Source: Cladochytrium replicatum
Taxonomy: Eukaryota > Chytridiomycota > Chytridiomycetes > Cladochytriales > Cladochytriaceae
Direction: 5' to 3'
Assembly: GCA_025526935.1 (NCBI GenBank)
Contig: JAHLKD010000038.1
Coordinates: 1 to 64,000 of the forward strand
DNA: 64,000 bases
Shown: positions 22,376-50,300 of the stretch, piece after piece
Layout of the letters: the number at the start of each line of letters is the position of its first letter
Position numbering within the stretch: position 1 is the stretch's first letter
Notes under the pieces: generated by a model
The model's input: only the letters and a program-made list of their open reading frames with translations
Databases searched by the model: none
What the model was told of the DNA's origin: nothing
Position numbers and translations under genes: made by a program

Positions 22376-25300
22376 ATGGGAAACTCTCAGTCGCAGCAGA
22401 ACGAATTCTGCAACGTTTGCATCAACCATGCTGGTAACGAGGTCATTGTGACAATCTATGAGGACAAGTCATTTGCTTATTTGCGGAAGAAGGTAAGAGT
22501 TCAGGTGCAGTTTCGACAAATTTCAAACAAATGCTTGTTTGCCAGGTGAAGAACGAGTGTGATTTCGGTGACGCCGAATTTGCTCTCTTCGTTTTATTGG
22601 GCGAAAATCGTGAGAATATTGTGAGCGACGAGGATGTTGTGGAGCTGTTGGAAGGTCGCTTGCTCGGATCTCGTTCGAATGCTCCCACGATTTTCGTTGA
22701 GATTGTTGGAGGAGCTACTGCCCTTGCGAATCCGCTAACGCCTCCGAAAACGAATTCTGCCTCTCCAATCGCTGGACAGGAAACTTTGACTCTACCTGCG
22801 ATCCCCCAGTTTCCGACTGGCGAAAGCTTTGACGTCATGCTGTCGTACCAGTAAGATTTCGAAATTCAAAAATAATCATGGTGTCTTACTTTTGATTGAC
22901 AGGTGGGATAGTAAGTACAAGGTTGAACGAATCTACGACGACCTTGTTGCGAGCGGACTTACTGTGTGGATGGATCTTGACCAGATGCACGGCGACATCT
23001 ACCGACGCATGGTCGAAGGCGTTGTTGCCAGCAAGATATTTTCTCCGTGCTTGACCCTGGCTTATTCCGTACGCCTTTTTTCTAGCTTTGTGAACAACAT
23101 ATCTTACATCCATGTTACAGAAATCCGATAAATGTCTTGCCGAGATTGAATATGCTCGAGTGGTTCGAAAAGCGATGGTGCCGAACTTGTTCTGGAAGCC
23201 TGCAGTTGATGCGCCGCTTCATCAAACATTTGTTGAATTGAAACAAGTTGATTTGATCACTGCAGGCTTGCTGTTGGTCGATTTTCACAAGGTGGAGCCT
23301 GATCAAGCAGGTTGGGCAGATTGTATGTCAGACCTAAAAGCTCAGATTGCCAAACGACTTTCGGAAGTGAACTCATTGGCTGTGAATCCTGCATCACCGA
23401 CCACAGATCAGTTGCAATCAACAGTACCCATGCCTCAGCAATCTACTAAGCCTGATATCCTCCGAGAATGGCTCAAACCAGTTGATATTGACTCTGACCT
23501 CAACTCATATGCTGAATCTTATGTGAGTGGAACACGCCACTGGCTACTGGAGAAGATCAACGCGTGGATTGCGGACCCTGGAGCCAGTCAAGTGATGTGG
23601 CTCCGCGGAGGAGCGGGTGTTGGGAAATCCATGATGGCATGGTTTGTTGGTGCCTATTTAAGTCATAGCCTATCAAAGCATGTAGAGGATTCCTTGGAGA
23701 TTGATCAACCAGTTGAAGCTCTTCTTGGGGCTCGGTTCTTCTGCAAGTATAATGACAGTCTTAAAAATGATCCCCATTGCGTGATTCAATCGATTGCTTA
23801 TCAGTTATCTTTTATTGATTCTCGCATTCAAATATACCTATCTGAACTCTGCAGCAAGGATCTCGAAAAGAAACCATCATTAATAGACTCGGATATTGTG
23901 ACCAAGTTTGACAAACTTGTGCTTGAACCCCTTAGACAGATTGATGCTCAGCAAGGAACAACTCGAAAGATAGTGGTCATTTTGGACGCGCTTGATGAAT
24001 GTGGAAAAATTGGAGGGAAAGCCCAGAAGGAATTATTGTTAGCATTTGCAAATTCTATCAACAAGACTCCAAAGAATGTGAAGCTTCTTGTCACTGGAAG
24101 ACCAGAGCCTGGTGTGTACTCTGTGCTTCATGATATGCACTGCACAGAACTTTGCCTAACTGATGACGACAATTTGAAGGACACCAAAATCTATGCACAT
24201 GAGCGCCTAAAAATCTATCTTGGAACAAATAAAAAGCTTCTAGATGAAGCAATTGGCTATCTCAGTGCTGCAGCAGAAGGGGTTTTTGTATGGATGAGGC
24301 TGGTGTGTGACCTGATCAGATCTAAATCTCCACAAACTGAAGATGAAGCCATGTCTATCATATCAGCACAGGGTAGAGGTGTTGACTCAGCGTATCACCA
24401 ACTCTTGGAAAGTGCGCTCCTGAATACTGGAGGATCAGCTGAGAACTTCAGGAGAGTGTTTGGAATGCTCTGTGTTGTCAAGGTCCCTGTTACTTTGAAT
24501 GTATTGGCAGAGCTGCTCAATATGGAAGAAACTCTTGTATCAGCTGAGCTTCTGCGCTATAGGTTTTTGATTGAGATTATGGCAAGTGGAGCAGTCAAGT
24601 TTATCCACAAGAGTGTCAGTGACTTCTTGACCAATTCCAGCCGTTGCAGTGATTCTAGGTTTTCAATTATATTATCTATTTATGAGACAGTAATTCTTGA
24701 CAGATGCTTGGATATCATGATGTCAGGTCTTTTTGCAAACATTGGTGACTTGAGTTCTACAACAATCTATGAGAAAATACCTCCTTCTGCACTGGAAAAG
24801 ATTCCCAATACACTTTTATATTGCTGTCTCTATTGGATTGAGCATTTTCTTTGGGTTTCTGACATATCCTCAGATGGATTCAGTAAAATATACAGCTTTT
24901 GCAAAACAGATCTTCTGTCTTGGGCAGAGGTTATGATTATCAATCAAGCTATTCGGACTATGATTGGGCAATTAGAGAAATTTTCTTTGAAAATTGCAAT
25001 GGCAAACAAGATGACAGATGCCATCAGCGTCATAACTGTGCCGGAAGCAGGGAGGGCAGATAATCGTATTCCTATTCTGAGAGCAACGGCAGCAAAGTTC
25101 ATTGAAGATATCTCTGTAGATCTTGCAAGGGTTGTTGAGTACAATCTGTTTCCAATCTCAAAGTGTCCTCTTCAGCTATACTGCACAGGATTGGTGTTTT
25201 GTCCCACCAAAACCAAGCTATGGGAAACATACAAAGATATTCTTAGCGGACCATTCTCTTCAGTCAAATTCACTATTGGCAGAGAACTGTCCTGGAGTCC

Positions 25301-26777
25301 ACAACTCTGGAACCATCAACTTTCAGACGACTGTCATTTTGTGACGTACTCACCAGATGGAAGCATGATTGCAGCAGCAACAGGAAACGACATAATCATA
25401 CTTGATGTGCAGTATCATACTGTATTGATCAAGCTCAAGGGTCACAGTGATTCGGTGAAGTCAGTAGCATGGTCACATGATGGGACAAAGATTGTGTCAG
25501 GATCATATGACTTTTCAGTGAGGGTGTGGTCAGCAACAACTGGAGAGCAGCTGATGAAGCTCGAGGGGCACAGTTCTTGGGTTTATTCTGTGGCATGGTC
25601 ACATGATGGGACAAAGATTGTGTCAGGATCACAAGAACAAACAGTGAGGGTGTGGTCAGCAACAACAGGAGAGCAGCTGATGACACTCGAGGGTCACAGT
25701 TCTTGGGTTAATTCAGTAGCATGGTCACATGATGGGACAAAGATTGTGTCAGGATCATTTGACAGCACAGTGAGGGTGTGGTCAGCAACAACAGGAGAGC
25801 AGCTCATGATGCTTGAGGTTCGCAATTCTTTGGGTTACAGTAGTGTTGTTTCTTCAGTAGCATGGTCACATGATGGGACAAAGATTGTGTCAGGATCAAG
25901 CGACGAGACAGTGAGGGTGTGGTCAGCAACAACTGGAGAGCAGCTGATAGAGCTTGAGGGTCACCGTGATTGGGTCAATTCAGTAGTATGGTCACGTGAT
26001 GGGACAAAGATTGTGTCAGGATCAGATGACAGTACAGTGAATGTGTGGTCAGCAACAACAGGGGAGCAGCTGTTGAAACTCGAGGGTCACAGTACTTCGG
26101 TTATTTCAGTAGCATGGTCACATGATGGGACAAAGATTGTGTCAGGATCAAGTGACAAGACAGTGAGGGTGTGGTCAGCAACAACAGGAGAGCACCTGAT
26201 GAAGCTCGAGGGTCGCGGTTCTGGGGTTATATCAGTAGCATGGTCACATGATGGTACAAAGATTGTGTCAGGATCAGTTGACAATACAGTAGGGGTGTGG
26301 TCACCAACAACTGGAGAGCAGTTAATGAAGCTCGAGGGTCACAGTTATGCAGTTTATTCAGTAGCATGGTCACATGATGGGACAAAGATTGTGTCAGGAT
26401 CATTTGACAAGACAGTGAGGGTGTGGTCAGCGACAACAGGAGAGCAGCTGATGAAGCTCGAGGGTCACATTTCTTCAGTTTATTCAGTAGCATGGTCACA
26501 CGATGGGACAAAGATTGTGTCTAAATCAGGCAAAGGTGAAATGATTTTATGGTCAGCAGTTACTGGACAGAAGGTTGATGGAGAGAGTCTATCAGAGAAG
26601 TATGATGATGGATATGGGACGTATTATTTTTTTTCTCAAGTTTATTCAGATGGATGGGCAGTTTTGGGCCATCACAAGTTCTGGTTGCCAGCTGAGATGA
26701 GGGGAATAATTTACAATAATAGTGAGAAAGGAATGTGTGTCATTCAATCAGCAAAGATGTATTGTTTCTTAAAGTAG
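22376..26777 (+). CDS. NLR-like receptor 1: myristoylation-type N-module, TIR, NACHT, nine WD40 repeats
   Basis: Four exons join in frame: 22376-22492, 22546-22850, 22903-23068 and 23121-26777 (1,414 residues). Residues 1-95 start MGNSQSQQNEFCNVC, an N-myristoylation consensus (Gly2, Ser6) with nearby Cys, and form a beta-grasp-like module (VIVTIYEDKSFAYLRKKV) resembling ubiquitin or Crinkler N-domains. Residues ~133-265 are a TIR domain (FDVMLSYQW, then VWMDLDQMHGDIY and CLAEIEYA, a plausible site for the catalytic Glu). The NACHT ATPase has Walker A GGAGVGKS (~359), Walker B ILDALDEC (~483) and TGRPEP. A helical region leads to nine 42-residue WD40 repeats (~968-1350) and a conserved tail ending YCFLK. 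NACHT-WD40 STAND proteins act as non-self or damage sensors in fungi; TIR domains often cleave NAD. Function here is inferred from architecture. All parts are intact. Confidence 0.92.
25430..26577 (+). repeat. Nine near-identical 126-bp WD40-coding repeats (receptor 1)
   Basis: Each unit encodes 42 residues around the constant core SVAWSHDGTKIVSGS and VRVWSATTGEQLM. Nucleotide identity between units is very high, even at silent sites, while a few codons vary: those after GHS, the one before SVAW and those flanking the Asp after VSGS. Repeat 4 carries a 5-codon insertion (NSLGYSSVV) and repeat 9 is divergent and closes the propeller. Confidence 0.95.
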
Positions 26778-27059: not shown

Positions 27060-27143
27060 TAAGGATCAGCGGGTTTTCGGTAAGGATCAGCAGGTTTTCG
27101 GTAAGGATCGGCGGGGTTTCGGTAAGGATCAGTGGGGTTTTGG
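27060..27143 (+). repeat. Four 21-bp tandem repeats at the edge of the hAT remnant
   Basis: Four copies of TAAGGATCRGCRGGKTTTCGG-type units run head to tail. The first ten bases match the terminal inverted repeat of the non-autonomous element at 39,719, so this is probably the terminal/subterminal repeat block of the adjacent hAT transposon. Confidence 0.85.
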
Positions 27144-27179
27144 TAATGACTCACATCTTCTTCCAATGACTACAGCGAG

Positions 27180-29177
27180 TTGGGCCTGGCTTCTCAGCGT
27201 GAACCACAGCTTCCTGCCGACGTTAGTTTTGCTGACTCTTCAGTGCGACAAGGGCACTCAGCTGGATTGGTTCAACCATCAATGCTTTCATCGGACGTAG
27301 ATGTTGATAGCATGTCGGACTGTAGAGGTGGTCGAGGCAGCCTAGCGAAGGATAACTATAAGGTTAATAATGGACTGAGAATGTGTTTGGTTGCGAAATG
27401 CAAGTGGAGCCATGTTGGCTAGGATTGCTGCAGACAATCAGGCTTTTACTCTTGTGGAGAACGAGTTTCTTTGTCAGCATGCTGAAGACTTTTCAGCCAA
27501 ACTATACAGCAAAGACGGCAAAAGCAGTGAAGCAAAATGAGATGGATCTTTACAGTAGGCAGAAGGAGCTCGTTAAAGGTCTGATTGTTGGTTCGCCTTC
27601 AAAAGTATCAATAAGAGCAGAACCAGATTTCTTTTCTTGGAATTACTGCCCACTTCATCACGAAAGAATGGGAGCCGCAGCACTTGCTGCTGCAGATGAT
27701 TCCGATGGTTGGAAAGCATGAAGGCGTCGCCATGGCTAGTCAGCTTGTCAAGTGTCTGGATGAATTTGGCATGCTATCTGGTGGACACTTATTGTGCATT
27801 AAAACTGACAATGGTTCAAACAACTTTACCATGAGTGCTAAGCTGGAGACGCTATTGGAAGATAAAGTATATTGGGTGGTCTGCAGAAACTCAACACATG
27901 CAGTGTATGGCACACATTATCAATCTTGCAGCAAAGGATTTTATCAACACATTCGGGCCTGCAGGGGACAGTCGCACATGTTGATTACTCCGGCGTTAAT
28001 GTCATAAACCTTCTTCGACGGCTGGTCAGAGGAATCCGGTCTTCCCCATAACGACGAAGCTCATTTGTTGATTCGTGCTGATTTGTGAAACTGGTTCCTC
28101 TATTACCAATTATCGATGTGACAACTCGCTGGAATAGCACGTTCTATATGGTCAACGAGCCTTACAGCTACGAGAGGCAATGGACAAAATATGCTGGATT
28201 GAAGATTCTTTGAAAGATTGGTCAATGAATCCAAAGCAATGGGAGGTCCTACAGAAGATCCGGGATGGTTTGAGTGTTTTCGAGGTTATATCAAAGGCAA
28301 TTGAGGGGTCTAGATTTCCAACACTTCCGCTTGTTATTCCATTTAACAACGATCTCATCGATCAACTGGAGGACCTAGAGGAGGCAGAATTGGATGAAAC
28401 TTTCACCAAAGCATTTCGAAATGAACTAGATAAGCTGAGAATATATTACTCAATCGCTAAGAGCCCGTGTTTAGCAGTTGCTACGGTACTCGATCCTCGT
28501 TTTATGGATCAATATTATCAATTTTCAAAGGCTTGGGAGAAAGATGTAGGAAGGGATCAGGTCACCCTAGTGCGGAAAGTCTGGGAGGAATCGTATAAGT
28601 CACGGAAAATCAAGAACAGTGGTGCCAATGTTTTTGGAAACACGCCAGAACGTCGATACGATTTGAGCGGAGCTTCCAGTGATAGACAGAAAAAAACGGA
28701 TGCTGAATGCTTGAGAGCCATTAGATCCATTTTCATCTGGCAAGAGATTCCTGAGGAAAAAGATGAACTGGATCGCTATCTTGGCGATCGGGTAATCCGC
28801 GGTATTGATTGTGATGGGAAGCCAATCAATATTATGGACTGGTGGAAGACCGTTGGAAGTGTGAACTTCCAGCCCTAAGCCAGATGGCAATGGACTATTT
28901 AGGAATACCAGCAACAAGCGCTCCAGTCGAACGAAAGTTTTCAGCCGGGGTTGATTTGGTACCTGCAACTCGCAATCGCCTTGCTTCAAAAACAATAAAT
29001 GTGTTGATGTGCAGTCATGACTGGTTGCATCAATTGAGTGCTGAAGAACTGTTCAAAAGTGATTTCCTAGATTCAAAAAGTGATGTTAGTGAGGATTTTG
29101 TAAAGGTGCATAATTTTGGCGCGGATTTTGATGTGGTCTTAGAGTTGGAAGCAACTGATGATAACCCAATCCTTTAA
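27180..29177 (+). pseudogene. Degenerate hAT-family transposase gene
   Basis: Pieces of one transposase appear in shifting frames. An N-terminal fragment (27,180-27,422) ends in KCKWSHVG, like a BED zinc-finger remnant. The middle keeps AHIINLAAKDF at about 27,910. A long open piece (28,180-28,878) carries the catalytic-core and insertion region (CLAVATVLDPRFMDQYY). After a stop, the C-terminal dimerisation (HATC) region is clear: QMAMDYLGIPATSAPVERKF, then a stretch ending NVLMCSHDWL. Several stops and frameshifts make it inactive. hAT elements move by cut-and-paste and make 8-bp target duplications. The left repeat block lies immediately upstream; I could not find the right terminus, so the element may be truncated. 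Confidence 0.88.
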
Positions 29178-30648: not shown

Positions 30649-30989
30649 GTCAATTTTTAAACAGAAGCAAGTTGGGAGCAAATTGGATGCAGAGAAAATA
30701 GGAAAGAGTATAGCAAAATAGGAAAGAAGCATCCGTTCCGAATAAGCTGTTAGACATCGGCTGTGTTTTCATCTCCCAAAAAGGACATTTGAGCAGGCTT
30801 TAACTTGCCGATCAGTTCAGAGGCACAACCGCACCGCACATGTTAGAGAACCAAAAATCGACGGTTGGCCTTAATACGGGAATCCAAATTGATACAAGAA
30901 AGGTAAGGGAGTCGACCGCAGAAACATAGACCGCAAACATCAAAGGAGATAGCATTCCAGGGATCTGGCAAAAGTAGGACCAAAAATCT
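30649..30989. other. Gene-free spacer shared with the region before the third ADAM copy
   Basis: This is AT-rich sequence closely similar to 46,920-47,280, including a GGGATCTGGCAAA..GTAGGA motif near the 3' end of each ADAM copy. It belongs to the duplicated ADAM block and has no gene of its own. Confidence 0.6.
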
Positions 30990-33549
30990 CAAACACCTAA
31001 TCCCACACTCCCAAAAATCGTTTTTTATCCCGACTCTCGGCGAGCCCTGCCGACCGGCTCCATACCCGTCATCGAACGCCGGCGCATTGTACGGCAAGCA
31101 ATTATTCTGCTGGCGCTGTTGCTGTGCCGGGGAGTTCGTCCTCACCGGCTGCTGCTGCTGGGGCGGCGTCCTCCTGCCGCCGTTGTCAGTCGCGACGTTC
31201 GTGCGCTCCGAGTTGACCTTGGCCATCTCGTGTGCGCGTAGGTCCGAGTCGTCGTCTCCGGTCGGGTGCGATTTCTGGAAGAACGGAGTCTTGAGCATGC
31301 TTTCGGACTTTCCGCCGCGCAGGGGGTTCTTTTTCGGTCGTCGGAGAGTTGTTTGGAGACTGAGCGCCGGCGGAGGCAGCAGCGCACGATGAGGAGGATG
31401 AGGGAGAAGACAAGGAGGGCGATGATCACGACGATGGCGATGAGCTCTGGAAGAATTGGAAGAGGCTGCAGATCGCGTCGCGTCGACTGGAAAGCAAACA
31501 CAGTCATGGTTATGTATTTGGAAGTACCAGCTCCAGAGCCGGTCTCACAGACTCCGTCGCGACAGCTGCCACCAAATCCGTATCCGCAAGGCGTACCATC
31601 TAGTCAAGAAATTAGTGGACCTGGTACAACGTTTTGATTATTTCCCAAACACACCGATGTAGTTCTGGTTCAAGTTCAAGCAAGTCCCGTCCGAAGACTT
31701 GCAGTGGAGCGTGCACTGCAACTCCGACCCTTCGCACTGCGACACAGTTCCAAACAATGAGTTCAAGCACTGCGAGTTCCTGAGCATCCAACATAAACGT
31801 AAGCACGAATCACAGCCTTCCATCTGATTTTCCTCACCTGCTGGTGCAGTACCCGCTAGCGCACACGTTGCCTCCAAAAGAGTCGGTGCACGTCGTCCCG
31901 TCCTTCATTACAAGGTCGACCGGACACGTCGCGTTAGTGCCCAAGCACTTTTCCTCGAGATCGCAAGGACCCGATGACGGTCGACACGTTGTCCCGCATC
32001 ACGGAGCTGGCATCGGAGCAGCACTCGTCGTTGGAGTCCGAGCACACAGCGCCGTTTTTGAACTTGCAGGCGTTGCCGTTGCGGCAAGAGTCCTTTGCGC
32101 ATTCCTCTGGGGTACCGCAATCGCAGTCTTCACCATCTTCAACGCAGAGAATAAGTATGAAGAACATAAGCAACTATCGGTGATATTTTACATTCTTTAA
32201 TTCCGTTTCCGCACACACCCGCATTGATGGCCGTGATCTCATTGGAGTCTTGAAAGAACGGTGAGCATTTTTTGAACATTCCCATTGATGAAACTCACTC
32301 TTCAGGCACTTTGCGAGCCGAGTGTAGTTACTGAAAATATAGCGAATGGAGCAAGGAGAGAATTCGTTCGACTCTGCGTTGTCCGAAGGGTGCATCACTG
32401 GTAGCGACAAAAAGCACTTAGGAAAAAACAAAATCTCCGTCGAGCAATCACGCAACTCACAGTATTTGCCATTACAGTCACAGTTTGTGCAGGGGCAGAA
32501 ACCACACGACGGGAAAGAGCACATGTTGGTGTTGCAGTCGTGAATTGCACCAAAGTCTGAAAATAAAAGTTCATCGATGGGACGAGTGTTTGGAATACGA
32601 CCGGCTTACTGAGGGCAATTTCGTGTGCAACGACCATCCACTCATTGGTGGTGATGACTCACAATCCAGTTCCCGAGCTATAGGTCGTCACCCCCCCTAA
32701 TAAAACACGATTTGTAAGTCGTTTAAAAAAATGGAGAGCCAGCTCTACCATCAGTCTGAATCTTGGAGCTGGTAGTGTAGACTGATGTCACCGACACCAA
32801 TCCTACCGCAGACCCAGTCCTACAGTCAGGAAGTTAGTGTACCCTCCTTTTTACCACCCGGCATTGGACGCACCCACACTTGTGACCAAATGCCACAGAT
32901 CCGCCTGGTCACTTACGGTTCCTCTCCACTTTGAAAAGTCCGAGAGACGCTGTGTGAGGTTACACCCCGTGCTGCAATCCTGGTTCCACTTCATGTTCTC
33001 CTCGTTGGGCGTGCACACGCGCTTCAGCGTCACGTTGATCAAAGTCAGGCCAATGTTCGTCGACTGCTGGTAAGTCGCCGACGCCGTGTTTCAGTTCTTC
33101 GGAATCTGCTAAGCAGCAGGTGAAATAGTGACGTACGAGCAATCCGCACCGGCGGACATGAAGAACTTTGAGGTGTGAGGGAGTTGATGTTCTGCGAGAG
33201 GATGTTTCCGACGATGACACCATTCGGCGGTCATGGTGCAGCACGAGCCGAAGAGCGCAGTGTCATCGCGACGACTGAGGTGCAGGTTGCCGGTTGCGCC
33301 GTGTCGTCGCGACGACTGAGGTGCAGGTTGCTGGTTGGGCGGAGCTCTTCGTTATTCAGGGCGGCGAGAAACTCTTTGGACTGGTCGGTAAAGATGATCA
33401 TTTTGGAGCGTCGGTGGGCCGTCGGGTGACAGAGTGGGCTGGTGATGTTCACATCATACTGAAAAGTGTAGATCGATAAGTCAGTGCAATCACAGCTAAA
33501 TATTCTTTAGGTTACCACTTGCTTGACGCACTGCTAGGGCAGCGACGTT
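30990..33549 (-). pseudogene. ADAM metalloprotease copy 1: 5'-truncated, active-site mutated
   Basis: The exon order of a membrane ADAM can be followed on the minus strand: prodomain/protease parts (33,450-32,560), disintegrin and Cys-rich parts (32,150-31,640), a transmembrane segment near 31,400 (AIVVIIALLVFSLILLIV) and a Gln-rich tail. Three kinds of damage are visible compared with copy 3. The zinc-binding HEIAH is changed to HEIAL (codon CTC read from 32,611-32,613). The disintegrin is frameshifted after NDECC. The cytosolic tail lacks about 190 bp. The 5' part stops at about 33,549, where receptor 2 sequence begins, so the signal peptide and first prodomain exons are missing. Confidence 0.85.
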
Positions 33550-33643: not shown

Positions 33644-36600
33644 ATGGGAAACGCTCAGTCGCAGCAGAACGAATTCTGCAACGTTTGCATCAACCATGCT
33701 GGTAACGAGGTTGTCGTGACAATCTACGAGGACAAGTCCATTGCGTATTTGCGGAAGGAGGTAAGAATTCAGGGGCAGTCCGAACAAACTCACACTAATG
33801 TGCGTTTTCCAGGTGAAAAAACAGTGTGATTTCGGAGACGCCGAATTTGCTCTTTTCGCTTTAATGGGTGAAAATCGCGAGAATCTTGAGTGCGACGAGA
33901 ATGTTGTTGAGCTGGTGGAAGGTCGCTTGCTTGGATCTCCTTCGAAGGCTCCCACAATTTTCGTTGAGATTTTTGGAGGAGCTACTTCCCCTGCGAATCC
34001 GCTAACGCCTCCGAAAACGAATCCCGCCTCTCCAATCGCTGGACAGGAAACTTTGTCCCAACCTGCGATCCCCCAGTTTCCGACTGGTGAAAGCTTTGAT
34101 ATCATGCTGTCGTACCAGTAAGATTACGAAATTCAAAAATAATCATGGTGTCTTACTTTTGATTGACAGGTGGGATAGTAAGTACAAGGTTAAACGAATC
34201 TACGACGACCTTGTTGCGAGCGGACTTACGGTGTGGATGGATCTTGACCAGATGCACGGCGACATCTACCGACGCATGGCCGAAGGCGTTGTTGCCAGCA
34301 AGATATTTTCTCCGTGCTTGACCCTGGCTTATTCCGTACGCCTTTTTTTCCCTTTGTGAACAACATATCTTACATTCATGTTACAGAAATCCGATAGCTG
34401 TCTTGCCGAGATTGAATATGCTCGAGTGGTTCGAAAAGCGATGGTGCCGAGCTTGTTCTGGAAGCCTGCAGTTGATGCACCGCTTCATCAAACATTTGTT
34501 GAATTGAAACAAGTTGGACTGATCACTGCAGGCTTGCTGTTTGTCGATTTTTACAATGTGGAGCCTGATCAAGCAGATTGGGCAGATTGTATGTCAGACC
34601 TAAAGGCTCAGATCGCCAAACGACTTTTGGAATTGAACTCATTTGCAGTCAGTCCTGCATTACCGAGCACAGATCAGTTGCAATCAACCGTACCCATGCC
34701 TCAGCAATCTACTAAGCCTCATATTCTCCGAGAATGGCTCAAACCAGTTGATATCGAATCTGACCTCAACTCATACTCTGAATCTTATGTGAGCGGAACA
34801 CGCCACTGGCTACTGGAGAAGATCAACACTTGGATTGCAGACCCTGAAGCCAGTCAAGTGATGTGGCTCCGCGGAGGTGCAGGTGTTGGAAAATCCGTCA
34901 TGGCATGGTTTATTGGTGCCTATCTGAGTCATAGCCTATCAAGGCATGTGGAGGATTCCTTGGAGATTGATCGACCAGTTGAAACTCTTCTTGGAGCTCA
35001 GTTCTTCTGCAAGTACAATGACAGTCTCAAAAATGATCCCCATTGCGTGATTCACTCAATAGCTTATCCGCTATCTTTTATTGATTCTCGCATTCAAATA
35101 TACCTTACCAAACTCTGCAATAAGGATCTCCAAAAGAAACTATCATTATTGGACTCGGATATCCTGACCAAATTTGACAAACTTGTCCTTGAACCCCTTA
35201 GACAGATTGATGCTCAGCAAGGAACAACTCAAAAGATAGTGATCATTTTGGATGCACTTGATGAATGTGGAAAAATTGGAGGGAAAGCCCGGAAGGGATT
35301 ATTGTCAGCTCTTGCAAACTCTACCAACAAGACTCCAAAGAATGTGAAGCTCCTGGTCACTGGAAGACCAGAGCCTGATGTGTACTCTATGCTCCATGAT
35401 ATCCACTGCACAGAACTTTGCCCAACTGATGACGACAATTTGAAGGACACCAAAATCTATGCACACGAGCGCCTAAAAATCTATCTTGGAACAAATAAAA
35501 AGCTTCTAGATGAAGCAGTTAGCTATCTCAGTACTGCAGCAGAAGGGGTGTTTGTATGGATGAGGCTGGTGTGTGACCTGATCAGATCAAAATCACCACA
35601 AACTGAAGATGAAGCCATGTCTATCATATCAGCACAGGGTGGATGTGTTGACTCAATGTATCACCAGCTCTTAGAAAGTGCACTCCAAAATACTGGAGGA
35701 TCACCTAAGAACTTCAGGAGGGTTTTTGGAATGCTCTGTGTTGTCAAGGTCCCTGTTACTTTAAATGTATTGGCAGAGCTGCTCAATATGGAAGAAACTC
35801 TTGTATCAGCTGAGCTATTGCGCTATAGGTTTTTGATTGAGATTATGTCAAGTGGAGCACTCAAGTTTATGCACAAGAGTGTCAGTGACTTCTTGACCAA
35901 TTCCAGCCGTTGCCGTGATTCTAGGTTTTCAATTGATGTATCAATCTATGAGACAGTAATTCTTGACAGATGCTTGGATATCATGATGTCAGGTCTTTTT
36001 GCAAACATTGGTGACTTGAGTTCTACAACAATCTATGAGAAAATACCTCCTTCTGCACTCAAAAAGATTCCCAATACACTTGTATATTGCTGTCTCTATT
36101 GGATTGAGCATTTTCTTTGGGTATCTGACATATCCTCAGATGGATTCAGTAAAATATACAGCTTTTGCAAAACACATCTTCTGTCTTGGGCAGAGGTTAT
36201 GATTGTCAATCAAGCAATTCGGACTATGATTGGGCAATTAGAGAAATTTTCTTCGAAAATTGCAATGGCAAACAAGATGAAAGATGACATCAGCATCATA
36301 ACTGATCGTATTCCTCTTCTGAGAGCAACGGCAACAAAGTTCATTGAAGACATCTCCGTAGATCTTGCAAGGGTTGTCGAGTACAATCTGTTTCCAATCT
36401 CAAAGTGTCCTCTTCAGCTTTACTGCACAGGATTGGCGTTCTGTCCCACCCAAACCAAGCTATGGGAAACATACAAAGATATTCTTAGTGGACCATTCTC
36501 TTCAGTCAAGTTCACTATTGGCAGAGAACTGTCCTGGAGTCCACAACTCTGGAACCATCAACTTTCAGACAACTGTTATTTTGTGACGTACTCACCAGAT

Positions 36601-39600
36601 GGAAGCATGATTGCAGCAGCAACAGGAAATGACATAATCATACTTGATGTGCAGTATCATACTGTATTGATCAAGCTCAAGGGTCACAGTGATTCGGTGA
36701 AGTCAGTAGCCTGGTCACATGATGGGACAAAGATTGTGTCAGGATCATTGGACAACACAGTGAGGGTGTGCTCTGCAACAACAGGAGAGCAGCTGATGAA
36801 GCTCGAGGGTCACAGTTCTTCGGTCAATTCAGTAGCATGGTCACATGATGGGACAAAGATTGTGTCAGGATCAAGCGACAAGACAGTGAGGGTGTGGTCA
36901 GCAACAACAGGAGAGCAGCTGATGAAGCTCGAGGGTCACAGTTCTTCAGTCCTTTCAGTGGCATGGTCACATGATGGGACAAAGATTGTGTCAGGATCAT
37001 TGGACAACACAGTGAGGGTGTGGTCAGCAACAACAGGATGGCAGCTGATGAAGCTCGAGGGTCACAGTGATTGGGTCAATTCAGTAGCATGGTCACATGA
37101 TGGGACAAAGATTGTGTCAGGATCACGTGACTTTTCAGTGAGGGTGTGGTCAGCAACAACAGGAGAGCAGCTGATGAAGCTCGAGGGTCACCGTGATTGG
37201 GTCAATTCAGTAGCATGGTCACATGATGGGACAAAGATTGTGTCAGGATCAAGCGACATGATGGGACAAAGATTGTGTCAGGATCAAGCGACAAGACAGT
37301 GAGGGTGTGGTCAGCAACAACAGGAGAGCAGCTGATGAAGCTCGAGGGTCACAGTTCTTCAGTCCTTTCAGTGGCATGGTCACATGATGGGACAAAGATT
37401 GTGTCAGGATCATTGGACAACACAGTGAGGGTGTGGTCAGCAACAACAGGATGGCAGCTGATGAAGCTCGAGGGTCACAGTGATTGGGTCAATTCAGTAG
37501 CATGGTCACATGATGGGACAAAGATTGTGTCAGGATCACGTGACTTTTCAGTGAGGGTGTGGTCAGCAACAACAGGAGAGCAGCTGATGAAGCTCGAGGG
37601 TCACCGTGATTGGGTCAATTCAGTAGCATGGTCACATGATGGGACAAAGATTGTGTCAGGATCAAGCGACAAGACAGTGAGGGTGTGGTCAGCAACAACA
37701 GGAGAGCTTCTGGGTCACAGTTCTTCAGTCCATTCAGTAGCATGGTCACATGATGGGACAAAGATTGTGTCAGGATCAAATGACAAGACAGTGAGGGTGT
37801 GGTCAGCAAACAACAGGAGAGCTTCAGGGTCACAGTTCTTCAGTCCATTCAGTAGCATGGTCACATGATGGGACAAAGATTGTGTCAGGATCATTGGACA
37901 AAACAGTGAGGGTGTGGTCAGCAACAACAGGAGAGCAGCTGATGAAGCTCGAGGGTCACAGTTCTTGGGTCAATTCAGTAGCATGGTCACATGATGGGAC
38001 AAAGATTGTGTCAGGATCATTTGACAAGACAGTGAGGATGTGGTCAGCAACAACAGGAGAGCAGCTGATGAAGCTCGAGGGTCACAGTTCTTCAGTCCAT
38101 TCAGTAACATGGTCACATGATGGGACAAAGATTGTGTCAGGATCAAGCAACAACAGGAGAGCTTCAGGGTCACAGTTCTTCAGTCCATTCAGTAGCATGG
38201 TCAAAGATTGTGTCAGGATCATTGGACAACACAGTGAGGGTGTGGTCAGCAACAACAGGATGGCAGCTGATGAAGCTCGAGGGTCACAGTTCTTGGGTCA
38301 ATTCAGTAGCATGGTCACATGATGGGACAAAGATTGTGTCAGGATCATTTGACAAGACAGTGAGGATGTGGTCAGCAACAACAGGAGAGCAGCTGATGAA
38401 GCTCGAGGGTCACAGTTCTTCAGTCCTTTCAGTGGCATGGTCACATGATGGGACAAAGATTGTGTCAGGATCATTGGACAAAACAGTGAGGGTGTGGTCA
38501 GCAACAACAGGATGGCAGCTGATGAAGCTCGAGGGTGACAGTTCTTGGGTCAATTCAGTAGCATGGTCACATGATGGGACAAAGATTGTGTCAGGATCAT
38601 TTGACTTTTCAGTGAGGGTGTGGTCAGCAACAACAGGAGAGCAGCTGATGAAGCTCGAGGGTCACAGTTCTTCAGTTGATTCAGTGGCATGGTCACATGA
38701 TGGGACAAAGATTGTGTCAGGATCAAGCGACAAGACAGTGAGGGTGTGGTCAGCAACAACAGGAGAGCAGCTGATGAAGCTCGAGGGTCACAGTTCTTCA
38801 GTCCATTCAGTGGCATGGTCACATGATGGGACAAAGATTGTGTCAGGATCAAGTGACAAGACAGTGAGGATGTGGTCAGCAACAACAGGAGAGCAGCTGA
38901 TGAAGCTGGAGGGTCACAGTTCTTCAGTTGATTCAGTGGCATGGTCACATGATGGGACAAAGATTGTGTCAGGATCATTTGACAAGACAGTGAGGGTGTG
39001 GTCAGCAACAACAGGAGAGCAGCTGATGAAGCTCGAGGGTCACAGTTCTTCAGTTGATTCAGTGGCATGGTCACATGATGGGACAAAGATTGTGTCAGGA
39101 TCAAGCGACAAGACAGTGAGGGTGTGGTCAGCAACAACTGGAGAGCAGCTGATGAAGCTCGAGGGTCACAGTTCTTCAGTCCATTCAGTGGCATGGTCAC
39201 ATGATGGGACAAAGATTGTGTCAGGATCAAGTGACAAGACAGTGAGGGTGTGGTCAGCAACAACAGGAGAGCAGCTGATGAAGCTCGAGGGTCACAGTTC
39301 TTCAGTCCATTCAGTAACATGGTCACATGATGGGACAAAGATTGTGTCAGGATCAAGCGACAAGACAGTGAGGGTGTGGTCAGCATTTACTGGACAGGAG
39401 GTTGATGGAGATATTCTATCAGACCAGTATGATGGAAATGGGAAGGAGGATTTATTTTATCACGTTGATTCAGATGGATGGGTAGTTTTTGGCCATCACA
39501 AGTTCTGGATGTCAGCTGAGCTGACGGGAATAATTTACAATAATGGTGAGAAAGGAATGTGTGTCGTTCAGTCATCAAAGATGTATTGTTTCTTAAAGTA

Positions 39601-39601
39601 A
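33644..39601 (+). pseudogene. NLR-like receptor 2: same architecture, WD40 array expanded and frameshifted
   Basis: Exons 33644-33760, 33813-34117, 34170-34335 and 34387 onward match receptor 1 in position and phase. The N-module starts MGNAQSQQ. The TIR (FDIMLSYQW, VWMDLDQMHGDIY) and the NACHT (GGAGVGKS, ILDALDEC) are intact. Within the WD40 array the frame is lost at 37,258, where a 413-bp segment is duplicated. It is disturbed again near 37,708 (a 16-bp loss), 37,810 (an extra A plus a deletion), 38,145 and 38,200. The last part (38,117-39,601) is open again and encodes further perfect repeats plus the conserved tail ending YCFLK. If these changes are real, the product stops about 10 residues after 37,272 and keeps a short propeller. 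If they come from misassembly of near-identical 126-bp units, the gene may be intact with roughly 20 repeats. Confidence 0.85.
36845..37670 (+). repeat. 413-bp tandem duplication inside the receptor 2 WD40 array
   Basis: Bases 36,845-37,257 and 37,258-37,670 appear identical throughout. The unit is three 126-bp repeats plus 35 bp, so it breaks both the repeat register and the reading frame at its junction (…AGCGAC|ATGATGGGAC…). Confidence 0.85.
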
Positions 39602-44127: not shown

Positions 44128-45242
44128 TCAAACACCTAATCCCACGCTCCCAAAAATCGTTTTCAACTTAACGCCTTTTCCCCTGCGGCGGCGGCGCTCT
44201 GCTCCTGCTTCTCTCTCTCCTCTGTCCACCGACTTGCCGTCCCTCCCGCTCCCCTTGCAGCATCGCATTCTCAACAATCGGGCTCCCGACGTCCCGGTCC
44301 CCAACACGCCGTTCATGTCTGCAGAGTACCGCGATTCATACGGTGCCGGCGACGGAGCGTTCCCGACTCGCGGCGAGCCCTGTCGTCCTGATCCATACCC
44401 GTCATCGAACGCCCGCGAATTGTACGGCTGGTAATTATTCTCCTGCTGCTTGCTGCGCGGGTGAGATGTCCTCATCGGCTGCTGCTGTGGCGGCGTCCTC
44501 CTGCCCCCGTTGTCCGTCGCGAAGTTCATGCGCTCCGAGTTGACCTTAGCCATCTCAGGTGCGCGCGGGCCCGAGTCGACATCTCTGGCCGGGTGCGATT
44601 TCTGGAAGAACGGATTCTTGAGCATGCTTTGGGACTTTCCACCCCGCAAGGGGTTCTTTTTCGGGTCGTCGGAGAGTTGTTTGGAGGCCGAGCGCCGGCG
44701 GAGGCAGCAGCGAACGATGAGGAGGATAAGGGCGAGGACGAGGAGGGCGATGATCACGACGATGGCGATGCCGTAGCTCTGGAAGAATTGGAAGAAGCTG
44801 TAGATGGCGTCGACTGGAAAACAAAGACGGTCAGGGTTGTGTATGTTGGTGTTTTTTACAACGTACCAGCACCAGACCCGGTCTTACAGACTCCGTCGCG
44901 ACAGCTACCGCCAAATCCGTATCCGCAACGCGTACCATTTAATCAAGAAATTAGTGGACCTGGTACAAAGTTTTGATTCCCAAACATACCGATGTAGTTC
45001 TGGTTCAAGTTCAAGCAAGTCCCGTCCGAAGACTTGCAGTGGAGCGTGCACTGCAACTCCGACCCTTCGCACTGCGACACAGTTCCAAACAATGAGTTCA
45101 AGCACTGCGAGTTCCTGAGCATCCAACATAAACGTAAGCACGAATCATAGCCTTCCATCTGATATTCCTCACCTGCTGGTGCAGTACCCGCTAGCGCACA
45201 CGTTGCCTCCAAAAGAGTCGGTGCACGTCGTCCCGTCCTTCA
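44128..45242 (-). pseudogene. ADAM copy 2: 3' half only
   Basis: The minus strand carries the C-terminal exons of the ADAM gene, almost identical to copy 3: end of the disintegrin (GNVCASGYCTSR), the Cys-rich exon (CLNSLFGTVSQCEGSELQCT), the transmembrane segment near 44,750 and the Gln-rich cytosolic tail. Homology stops abruptly at about 45,242 within the disintegrin exon, so the signal peptide, prodomain and protease are missing. The tail is also frameshifted (GVLGTGTSGARLL instead of the copy 3 reading). Confidence 0.85.
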
Positions 45243-47312: not shown

Positions 47313-50300
47313 TTAACGCCTTTTCCCCTGCGGCGGCGGCGCTCTGCTCCTGCTTCTCTCTCTCCTCTGTCCACCGACTTGCCGTCCCTCCCGCTCCCCT
47401 TGCAGCATCGCATTCTCAACCATCGGGCTCCCCACGTCCCGGTCCCCATACACGCCGTTCATGTCTGCAGAGTACCGCGATTCATACGGCGCCGGCGACG
47501 GCGCGTTCCCGACTCGCGGCGAGCCCTGTCGTCCTGATCCATACCCGTCATCGAACGCCCGCGAATTGTACGGCTGGTAATTATTCTCCTGCTGCTGTTG
47601 CTGCGCGGGAGAGTTCGTCCTCGTCTGCTGCTGCTGTTGCTGCGCGGGTGAGTTCGTCCTCATCTGCTGCTGCTGTGGCGGCGTCCTCCTGCCCCCGTTG
47701 TCAGTCGCGAAGTTCGTGCGCTCCGAGTTGACCTTAGCCATCTCAGGTGCGCGCGGGCCCGAGTCGACATCTCTGGCCGGGTGCGATTTCTGGAAGAACG
47801 GATTCTTGAGCATGCTTTGGGACTTTCCACCCCGCAAGGGGTTCTTTTTCGGGTCGTCGGAGAGTTGCTTGGAGGCCGAGCGCCGGCGGAGGCAGCAGCG
47901 AACGATGAGGAGGATGAGGGCGAGGACGAGGAGGGCGATGATCACGACGATGGCGATGCCGTAGCTCTGGAAGAATTGGAAGAAGCTGTAGATGGCGTCG
48001 ACTGGAAAACAAAGACGGTCAGGGTTATGTATATGGGTTTTTTTACAACGTACCAGCACCAGACCCGGTCTTACAGACTCCGTCGCGACAGCTACCGCCA
48101 AATCCGTATCCGCAAGGCGTACCATCTAATCAAGAAATTAGTGGACCTGGTACAACGTTTTGATTATTTCCCAAACATACCGATGTAGTTCTGGTTCAAG
48201 TTCAAGCAAGTCCCGTCCGAAGACTTGCAGTGGAGCGTGCACTGCAACTCCGACCCTTCGCACTGCGACACAGTTCCAAACAATGAGTTCAAGCACTGCG
48301 AGTTCCTGAGCATCCAACATAAACGTAAGCACGAATCACAGCCTTCCATCTGATTTTCCTCACCTGCTGGTGCAGTACCCGCTAGCGCACACGTTGCCTC
48401 CAAAAGAGTCGGTGCACGTCGTCCCGTCCTTCATTACAAGGTCGACCGGACACGTCGCGTTAGTGCCCGAGCACTTTTCCTCGAGATCGCAAGGACCGGA
48501 TGACGGTCGACACACGTGTCCCGCATCACGGAGCTGGCATCCGGAGCAGCACTCGTCGTTGGAGTCGGAGCACACGGCGCCGTTTTTGAACTTGCAGGTG
48601 TTTCCGTTGCAGCAAGAGTCCTTCGCGCATTGCTCTGCGGTACCGCAATCGCAGTCTTCACCATCTTCAACACAGAGAATAGGTATGAAGAAAATTAACA
48701 AAAATAATGGTTGATATTTACCTTCTTTGATTCCGTTTCCGCACACACCAGCTTTGAAGGCCGTGATCTCGTTGGGGTCTTGAAAGAATGGTGAGCATTT
48801 TTTGAACATTCCCATTGATGAAACTCACTCTTCAGGCACTTTGCGAGCCGAGTGTAGTTACTGCAAATATAGCGAATGGAGCAAGGAGAGAATTCGTTCG
48901 ACTCTGCGTTGTCCGAAGGGTGCATCACTGGTAGCGACAAAAAACACTTAGGAAAAAACAAAATCTCCGTCCAGCAATCACGCCACTCACAGTATTTGCC
49001 ATTACAGTCACAGTTTGTGCAGGGGCAGCAACCACACGACGGGGAAGTGCAAGTCGGGGAGCACATGTTGGTGTTGCAGTCGTGAATTGCACCAAAGTCT
49101 GAAAATAAAAGGTGAATCGATAGAACGAGTGGTCGGAAAATGTCCGGCTTACTGTGGGCAATTTCGTGTGCAACGACCTTCCACTCATTGGTGGTGATGA
49201 CCGACACTCCAGTTCCCGAGCTATAGGTCGTCACCCCGCCTAATAAAAACAGGATATGTAAGTCGTTTAAAATATGGCGAGACAGCCCTACCATCAGTCT
49301 GAATCTTGGAGCTGGTTGTGCAGAGTGATGCAACCCACGCCAATCCTACCGCAGACCCAGTCCTACAGTCAGGAAGTTAGTGTACCCTCCTTTTTACCAC
49401 CCGGCATTAGACGCACCCACACTTGGTGACCAAATGCCACAGACCCGCCTGGTCAGTTACAGTTCCTCTCCACTTTGAAAAGTCCGAGAGACGCTGTGTG
49501 AGGTTATACCCCGTGCTACAATCCTGGTTCCACTTCACGTTCTCGTCGTTGGGCGTGCACACGCGCTTCAGCGTCACGTTGATCAAAGTCAGCCCTATGT
49601 TCATCGACTGCTGGTAAATCGCCGACGCCGTGTTCCAGTTCTTCAGAATCTGTTGCGCAGCGGGCGTCACGCCCCCGTGCGCAGTGACGTACGTGCAATC
49701 CGCCGCGGCGGACATGAAAAGAACTTTGAGGGTCGACGGGCAACCGTCTGTCGGGTTTCCGCTGCCGCCGTTGGCCGGGAGATTGCCGAAGAGGTTGTTG
49801 GACTCTGTGAGGGAGTTGATGTTCTGCGAGAGGATATTTCCAACGATGGCACCCTGGCCTTCGGGGGTCATGGTGCCGCAGGAGCCGAAGACCGTAGTGT
49901 CGTCGCGACGACGGAGGTGGAGGTTGCCGGTCGGGCGGAGCTCTTCGTTGTTCAGGGCGGCGAGAAACTCTTTGGACTGGTCGGTGAAGATGATCATTTT
50001 GGAGCGTCGGTGGGCCGTGGGGCGCGAGAGGGGGCTGGCGATGTTCACATCATACTGAAATGTGCAGATGGATAAGTCAGTTTAATCTATCAGCAAAATA
50101 TTCTTTAGGTTACCTCTTGCTTGACGCGCTGGTAGGTAGCGACGTCGTGGATGTGGAACATCATATCGCCAGCTGTAAATGAACCCTCAAACACAAGAAT
50201 GTCCTTCTTGTCATATGTGAGGATGCTGCACAGTGACCCAATGTTAGACTCGGAGGATCGAGGCATTCGACGGATGGCACGTACTTCAGGTTTTGGAAGG

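Follow-up and report, generated by a model that had tools for sequence, protein, structure and literature searches.

We propose that the gene at 22376-26777 (+) of the window, by which we mean the whole 64,000-nucleotide stretch of Cladochytrium replicatum DNA analysed here (contig JAHLKD010000038.1, positions 1 to 64,000), belongs to a lineage-specific, tandemly expanded family of NOD-like receptors (NLRs) in this chytrid fungus, as judged from its sequence and from that of the remaining genome. The reading that best fits these sequences, and one that we consider reasonably probable, is of a receptor family tethered by an N-terminal myristoyl group, in which a NACHT module would act as the switch, a fast-changing WD40 array as the sensor and a TIR domain as the part that cleaves nicotinamide adenine dinucleotide (NAD), with PB1-like heads aiding assembly. 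The original prediction, drawn from the letters of the window, had described one receptor gene; that gene is real, but it is one of at least 42 family loci.

This family became apparent when residues 1-934 of the window protein were searched against its own assembly (50.5 Mb, 198 contigs), which returned at least 73 matches, 49 of 241 candidates having been scored, so that all counts are lower bounds. With matches less than 2.5 kb apart merged into one locus, the at least 42 loci, including fragments, broken copies and a divergent C123 copy, are distributed as 11 on contig C61, 11 on C63, five on C80, two on the window contig (C38), two on C71 and one each on 11 further contigs. Thirty loci were retrieved and 29 modelled, L058 being left out with its 5' part missing. 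The 29 copies form a single clade with support of 100/100 in a tree built from the NACHT region, whose 42 rows are these copies, the C123 copy and 12 database proteins (P0019, in which Walker A found no match, having been dropped). The C123 copy stands next to this clade (88/74), followed by P0002 of Quaeritorhiza (99/97); the program warns that long branches make the placement of the former, and of several database rows, unsure.

The window gene contains four exons (22376-22492, 22546-22850, 22903-23068 and 23121-26777, all +) that encode 1414 residues with no internal stop and are separated by three GT-AG introns, at 22493-22545 (53 bp, phase 0), 22851-22902 (52 bp, phase 2) and 23069-23120 (52 bp, phase 0), all +. 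Identical introns are obtained from a spliced alignment guided by the gene's own conceptual protein, and exactly three introns in phases 0-2-0 are present in 25 of the 29 paralog models, which, as spliced alignments to the window protein, are biased toward the intron positions of the window gene. The splicing of the model is supported by this paralog conservation rather than by RNA. Together with Pfam matches to TIR_2, NPHP3_N and WD40, these observations uphold the intact four-exon TIR-NACHT-WD40 gene as first described.

The predicted protein has the domain make-up of a fungal NLR, namely a NACHT-type NTPase bearing both Walker motifs and C-terminal WD40 repeats. The NTPase region (residues 333-640, 23529-24452 (+), its end set by eye) matches NPHP3_N, a NACHT-type NTPase, over residues 333-523 (95.2 bits against a cut-off of 24.8, E 6e-27), and the NACHT profile PF05729 slightly under its cut-off (24.9 against 26.7 bits). 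Both the Walker A sequence GGAGVGKS (23607-23630, +) and the DALDE of the Walker B region VVILDALDEC (23973-24002, +) are kept in 29/29 copies, and their description as intact therefore extends to all copies modelled. The hidden Markov model search that had been suggested for the preceding region gives a match of 47.5 bits (cut-off 28, E 3e-12) to TIR_2 (PF13676) over residues 136-223, within a TIR region that spans residues 133-290 (22825-23402, +) and holds the second and third introns. The predicted catalytic glutamate, residue 204 in the sequence CLAE (23142-23144, +), is a glutamate in 29/29 copies and aligns, weakly by E value (0.91 and 0.062 respectively), with a glutamate of the TIR domains of flax L6 and Cat1 that we take to be the catalytic NADase residue. 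With a profile match over the cut-off and the predicted NADase glutamate in place, the region reads as a TIR domain. NAD cleavage, membrane attachment, cell death and an immune function are putative for the protein. Within residues 1-934 the only Pfam matches are TIR_2, NPHP3_N and NACHT, with none to the HET domain. The genome as a whole contains both TIR and HET proteins, with at least 71 TIR_2 matches, many of them off NLR loci, and 19 HET matches.

It could be argued that the TIR domain is a scaffold rather than an enzyme and signals by recruiting the genome's stand-alone TIR proteins, since animal TIR adaptors signal by recruitment and many of the TIR_2 matches come from contigs, or parts of contigs, that have no NLR locus. 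We regard this as unlikely given that the glutamate at the catalytic position is kept throughout the 29 copies and that few regions of the protein are as constrained as the TIR. The constraint is seen in the median pairwise ratio of nonsynonymous to synonymous substitution (dN/dS) among the 16 intact copies, obtained by a simple counting method with saturated pairs excluded, which is 0.25 for the head (116 of 120 pairs used), 0.36 for the first linker (84), 0.18 for the TIR (101), 0.31 for the second linker (94), 0.18 for the NACHT (120) and 0.33 for residues 641-934 (120). These values point to purifying selection on the head, TIR and NACHT of intact copies.

Intactness in this context was tested through residue 934 and demands that the start is present, that there are three introns and that neither a frameshift nor a stop occurs. 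Thirteen of the 29 copies fail, which counts against a functional receptor family, the test being a strict one in which L044 fails solely at one splice junction. The second family member in the window (33644-39601 (+), introns 33761-33812, 34118-34169 and 34336-34386) is 89% identical to the first up to residue 934 and passes the test, but is broken beyond this point: 22 repeat cores make up its WD array, where spacings of 35, 114, 115 and 202 bp are out of phase, its frame stops at 37302 and another frame spans 38108-39601. The out-of-phase junctions are the probable scar of unequal recombination, or else an assembly error in the repeats. Such failed copies and junctions would be expected of a decaying, recombining repeat family that is spread by duplication and has little present function; we find this very unlikely in view of the 16/29 copies that are intact through residue 934, the purifying selection on head, TIR and NACHT and the invariant residues of the motifs.

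The tether is suggested by the start of the protein, MGNSQS (22376-22393, +), which is of the N-myristoylation type MGxxxS, the consensus for this modification being an MG start followed by a small residue at position 6. No other in-frame ATG stands between this methionine and the nearest in-frame stop, 13 codons upstream, and the motif would lie at the true N-terminus, where the sequence pattern for N-myristoylation requires it. Among the 27 copies with a readable start (the 29 minus L039, whose 5' exons were not recovered, and L054, whose start was not recovered), Gly2 and Ser6 are each present in 27/27, encoded in either case by more than one codon, whereas positions 3-5 and 7-12 around them are variable to differing degrees. 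Met1 is present in 26/27, being lost in L042, and a further in-frame ATG lies upstream of the MG in 4/27. The genome also has N-myristoyltransferase matches over the cut-off, and the predicted N-myristoylation is hence borne out as a motif, by its conservation across the family and by these matches. Weighing against it, the MGxxxS start is absent from five start-bearing database relatives (P0001, P0002, P0004, P0005 and P0023, with P0003 being partial) and the divergent C123 copy shows no evident MG start, from which it follows that the motif was probably gained by the expanded clade.

Among known proteins, the TIR adaptor TRAM is N-terminally myristoylated and putative myristoylation sites are described on some plant coiled-coil (CC) NLRs (PMC10014160, PMC11467418). 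TRAM resembles the predicted window protein in combining N-terminal myristoylation with a TIR but is not an NLR, while the plant proteins carry a CC domain instead of a TIR. WD40 repeats are not known to be part of either.

Starting with this motif, the N-terminal head (residues 1-95, 22376-22713 (+), with the first intron inside) is, with moderate confidence, PB1-like rather than Crinkler, and its beta-grasp nature is putative, being read from profile similarity. No Pfam family is above its cut-off in residues 1-129. When 16 heads were aligned (alignment A1, consisting of 12 of the 16 intact own copies and four database heads), the best E values were 3.1e-4 for PB1, in one head, 0.017 for OTU1_UBXL, 0.031 for UN_NPL4 and 0.054 for Crinkler. 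Against solved structures, the A1 profile finds yeast Bem1 at the top (E 4.9e-4), and a second profile (A4), built from seven stretches of other chytrids that resemble the head, finds NBR1 at the top (E 1.2e-4), with 13 of the 17 sequences in its list carrying the names of PB1 proteins (NBR1, MEKK2, MEKK3, MEK5 and atypical PKC); the chains matched are presumably the PB1 domains of these proteins. The heads are thus like the PB1 domains of Bem1, NBR1, MEKK2 and MEK5 in profile across some 40-80 residues. That the own heads and those of other chytrids are related is supported by hhalign (score 26.4, E 2.4e-4, probability 43.9), a score reached by none of 200 column shuffles, whose maximum was 17.1.

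Several observations speak against the PB1 assignment. No single head passes the cut-off of PB1 (PF00564), the best being P0002 with 21.1 against 23.6 bits, and the window head has no PB1 match by Pfam profile at all; the ubiquitin-like UN_NPL4 and OTU1_UBXL score as well as or above PB1 on some heads; the Rhizophlyctis head matches the F1 lobe of an SNX17-type FERM domain better than PB1 (E 0.0013 against 0.037, both below the cut-off); and a profile of the own heads alone finds no PB1 among the solved structures. Also unlike PB1 domains, the first strand of the head has no conserved lysine by eye, and as a consequence the classic pairing of PB1 domains is not assured. One might therefore prefer a head that is a Crinkler/ubiquitin-type module with an incidental MG start, on the grounds that the beta-grasp fold is common to PB1, ubiquitin and Crinkler, that UN_NPL4, OTU1_UBXL and Crinkler match weakly in 4/16, 5/16 and 3/16 of the A1 heads, respectively, and that SUMO and ubiquitin variants are among the weaker matches of the A1 profile to solved structures. 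We consider this explanation distinctly unlikely, as PB1 proteins are the top solved-structure matches of both the A1 and A4 profiles and as an incidental start does not sit well with a Gly2 and Ser6 that are invariant between variable neighbours. Crinkler itself (PF20147) was rejected as the identity of the window head, which scores 13.4 against 24.6 bits (E 0.14). The Ubiquitin/Crinkler-like beta-grasp head that was originally predicted is to be revised, its profile similarity being greater to PB1 than to Crinkler.

Searches for PB1 and Crinkler across the genome gave no match at any NLR locus, the exons having been read singly and the head being split by the first intron, and none of the genome's five Crinkler matches is at an NLR locus. 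Within loci L001-L028 (3.2-3.6 kb each) the head profile matched only L008, which is itself an NLR locus; a match in L013 (E 0.08) was weak and, on reading, chance-like. The PB1 domains of p62 assemble into filaments (PMC6978347), and by analogy PB1-type assembly may be envisaged for the heads of the window family.

At the other end of the protein, Pfam recognises nine WD40 stretches, and reading of the sequence identifies ten WD motifs, a divergent first repeat (25308-25430, +) and nine near-identical repeats (25431-26579, +), followed by a tail. The nine-blade array of the original prediction accordingly holds for the near-identical repeats but overlooks the divergent first one. A strict pattern, which drops deviating repeats, extracted 148 repeats, to which 27 of the 29 copies contributed, several loci having been ended 1.5 kb downstream, and in these repeats the entropy is 2.85-3.74 bits at positions 7, 8, 10, 26 and 28 and at most 1.76 bits at all others. 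Within the window gene, the ratio of nonsynonymous to synonymous differences (pN/pS) at positions 8, 10, 26 and 28 is 1.09 (1.44 with position 7) against 0.55 in the rest of the repeat core. These four positions were picked from the window gene and tested on the other copies, and in 389 within-gene pairs, drawn from the 23 further copies that have two or more repeats, pN is 0.570 and pS 0.384 (ratio 1.48), compared with 0.101 and 0.203 (ratio 0.50) for the rest of the core. A control with random four-position sets on 200 of these pairs detracts from this result, 26/400 sets reaching the observed 1.41 and 92/400 exceeding 1, so that the contrast in pN is stronger evidence than the pN/pS ratio. 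Outside the hypervariable sites, repeats of one gene have an identity of 0.872 and those of different genes one of 0.836, a mild indication of concerted evolution.

The closest parallel to this sensor is provided by the HNWD receptors of Podospora anserina (HET-E, HET-D and HET-R), which likewise combine a NACHT with WD40 repeats that are 42 residues long, near-identical and preceded by a divergent first repeat. Seven sites of high dN/dS are published for the HNWD repeats, namely 10, 11, 12, 14, 30, 32 and 39 (PMC12222747). A shift by four positions, fitted by offset rather than against the HET-E sequence, places all five hypervariable sites of the window family on five of these (11, 12, 14, 30 and 32), an agreement that has a chance of about 0.001 for random sites when the best of the 42 shifts is taken. 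The array thus appears to have the 42-residue conserved WD repeats, with hypervariable sites subject to diversifying selection, that are typical of HNWD proteins, and the propeller foreseen as that of a non-self receptor does evolve in the manner of known fungal non-self receptors. Without a HET domain the window protein is not itself an HNWD member, and its family further differs in its TIR_2 domain in place of HET, its PB1-like head, its MGxxxS start and its number of loci.

These shared features, that is, the highly conserved 42-residue repeats, the spacing of the hypervariable sites and the divergent first repeat described for HET-E/D/R too, would also suit an allorecognition receptor like HET-E that acts between strains of one species. 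We think this improbable, as vegetative hyphal fusion is not known from chytrids, for which reason the window family is likely to detect parasites or viruses rather than to mediate fusion incompatibility.

The core of this architecture is not confined to Cladochytrium. TIR domains have been reported in NLRs of Chytridiomycota (PMC9815663), meaning that the combination of TIR, NACHT and WD40, which was at first considered unusual, is real but has published TIR-bearing precedents in the phylum. One survey found no NLRs in chytrids (PMC4986451), while a later one gives counts from one upward in Chytridiomycota species (PMC12258605); the former also describes the HET domain as a remote relative of TIR. 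The order head-TIR-NACHT is shared by proteins of Quaeritorhiza (P0002), Nowakowskiella (P0005), Rhizophlyctis (P0023) and Blyttiomyces (P0001 and P0003), and among the matches listed all of the closest relatives with this arrangement are in Chytridiomycota. P0002, which the tree places as sister to the own copies, has 35% identity over 87% of window residues 1-900. The Blyttiomyces proteins differ from the window gene in that TIR-NACHT units are repeated in one protein and WD40 is absent from the pieces seen; head-like stretches recur ahead of their TIRs. A comparable expansion was not seen in other chytrids in searches of protein databases, one of which covered the best 7999 candidates, and a literature search on PB1/TIR/NACHT proteins, myristoylated fungal NLRs and chytrid TIRs, which covered mostly titles and the beginnings of abstracts and few subscription papers, found no published description of the window family. 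The chytrid TIR-NLR core is hence already known; the expansion appears to be new, as do the conservation of an acylation motif, a head that is PB1-like and a sensor that evolves in the HNWD manner. A neighbouring protein in the window is database entry P0025, and the window NLR and its close paralogs are not among the database matches listed, as if the source annotation or the database collection left this family out.

Elsewhere in the window, a short tandem repeat of type GGATCAGCGGGTTTTCGGTAA was seen by eye at about 27060-27145, downstream of the gene, and a weak match to the RNase-H part of a hAT-type transposase follows at 28138-28875 (19.8 bits against a cut-off of 27). Three related open frames with common sequence stretches, at 30843-31544, 44128-44883 and 47313-48125 (-), resemble a local family; two of them have a hydrophobic segment, and the one frame tested had no Pfam match over the cut-off.

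By analogy with HNWD receptors and plant TIR-NLRs, we envisage that the window protein works as follows. The N-myristoylated protein would be located on an inner membrane, where its WD40 propeller would clamp a foreign or altered self protein by means of the hypervariable surface. The NACHT module would then exchange its nucleotide and oligomerise, and the PB1-like heads may help to align the TIRs, which would cleave NAD and so lead to death or to a signal. As a large clustered receptor family in one genome, these loci resemble the disease-resistance gene families of plants, and we tentatively suggest, as a possibility that goes further than the model itself, that a resistance-gene system like that of plants has arisen independently in a zoosporic fungus, with tandemly expanded membrane-anchored TIR receptors, PB1-like heads that aid in assembling the TIRs and sensors diversified through repeats as in Podospora, serving anti-parasite defence in the absence of vegetative fusion. 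If so, at least 42 loci of one TIR-NLR family in a chytrid would mean that large and rapidly evolving repertoires of receptors arose outside Dikarya, and would allow the idea that fungal NLRs act in defence, and not only in strain incompatibility, to be tested in a natural setting. The window family would bring a true TIR together with the HET-E mode of sensing, and its conserved acylation motif and PB1-like head suggest steps of activation that may be tested directly.

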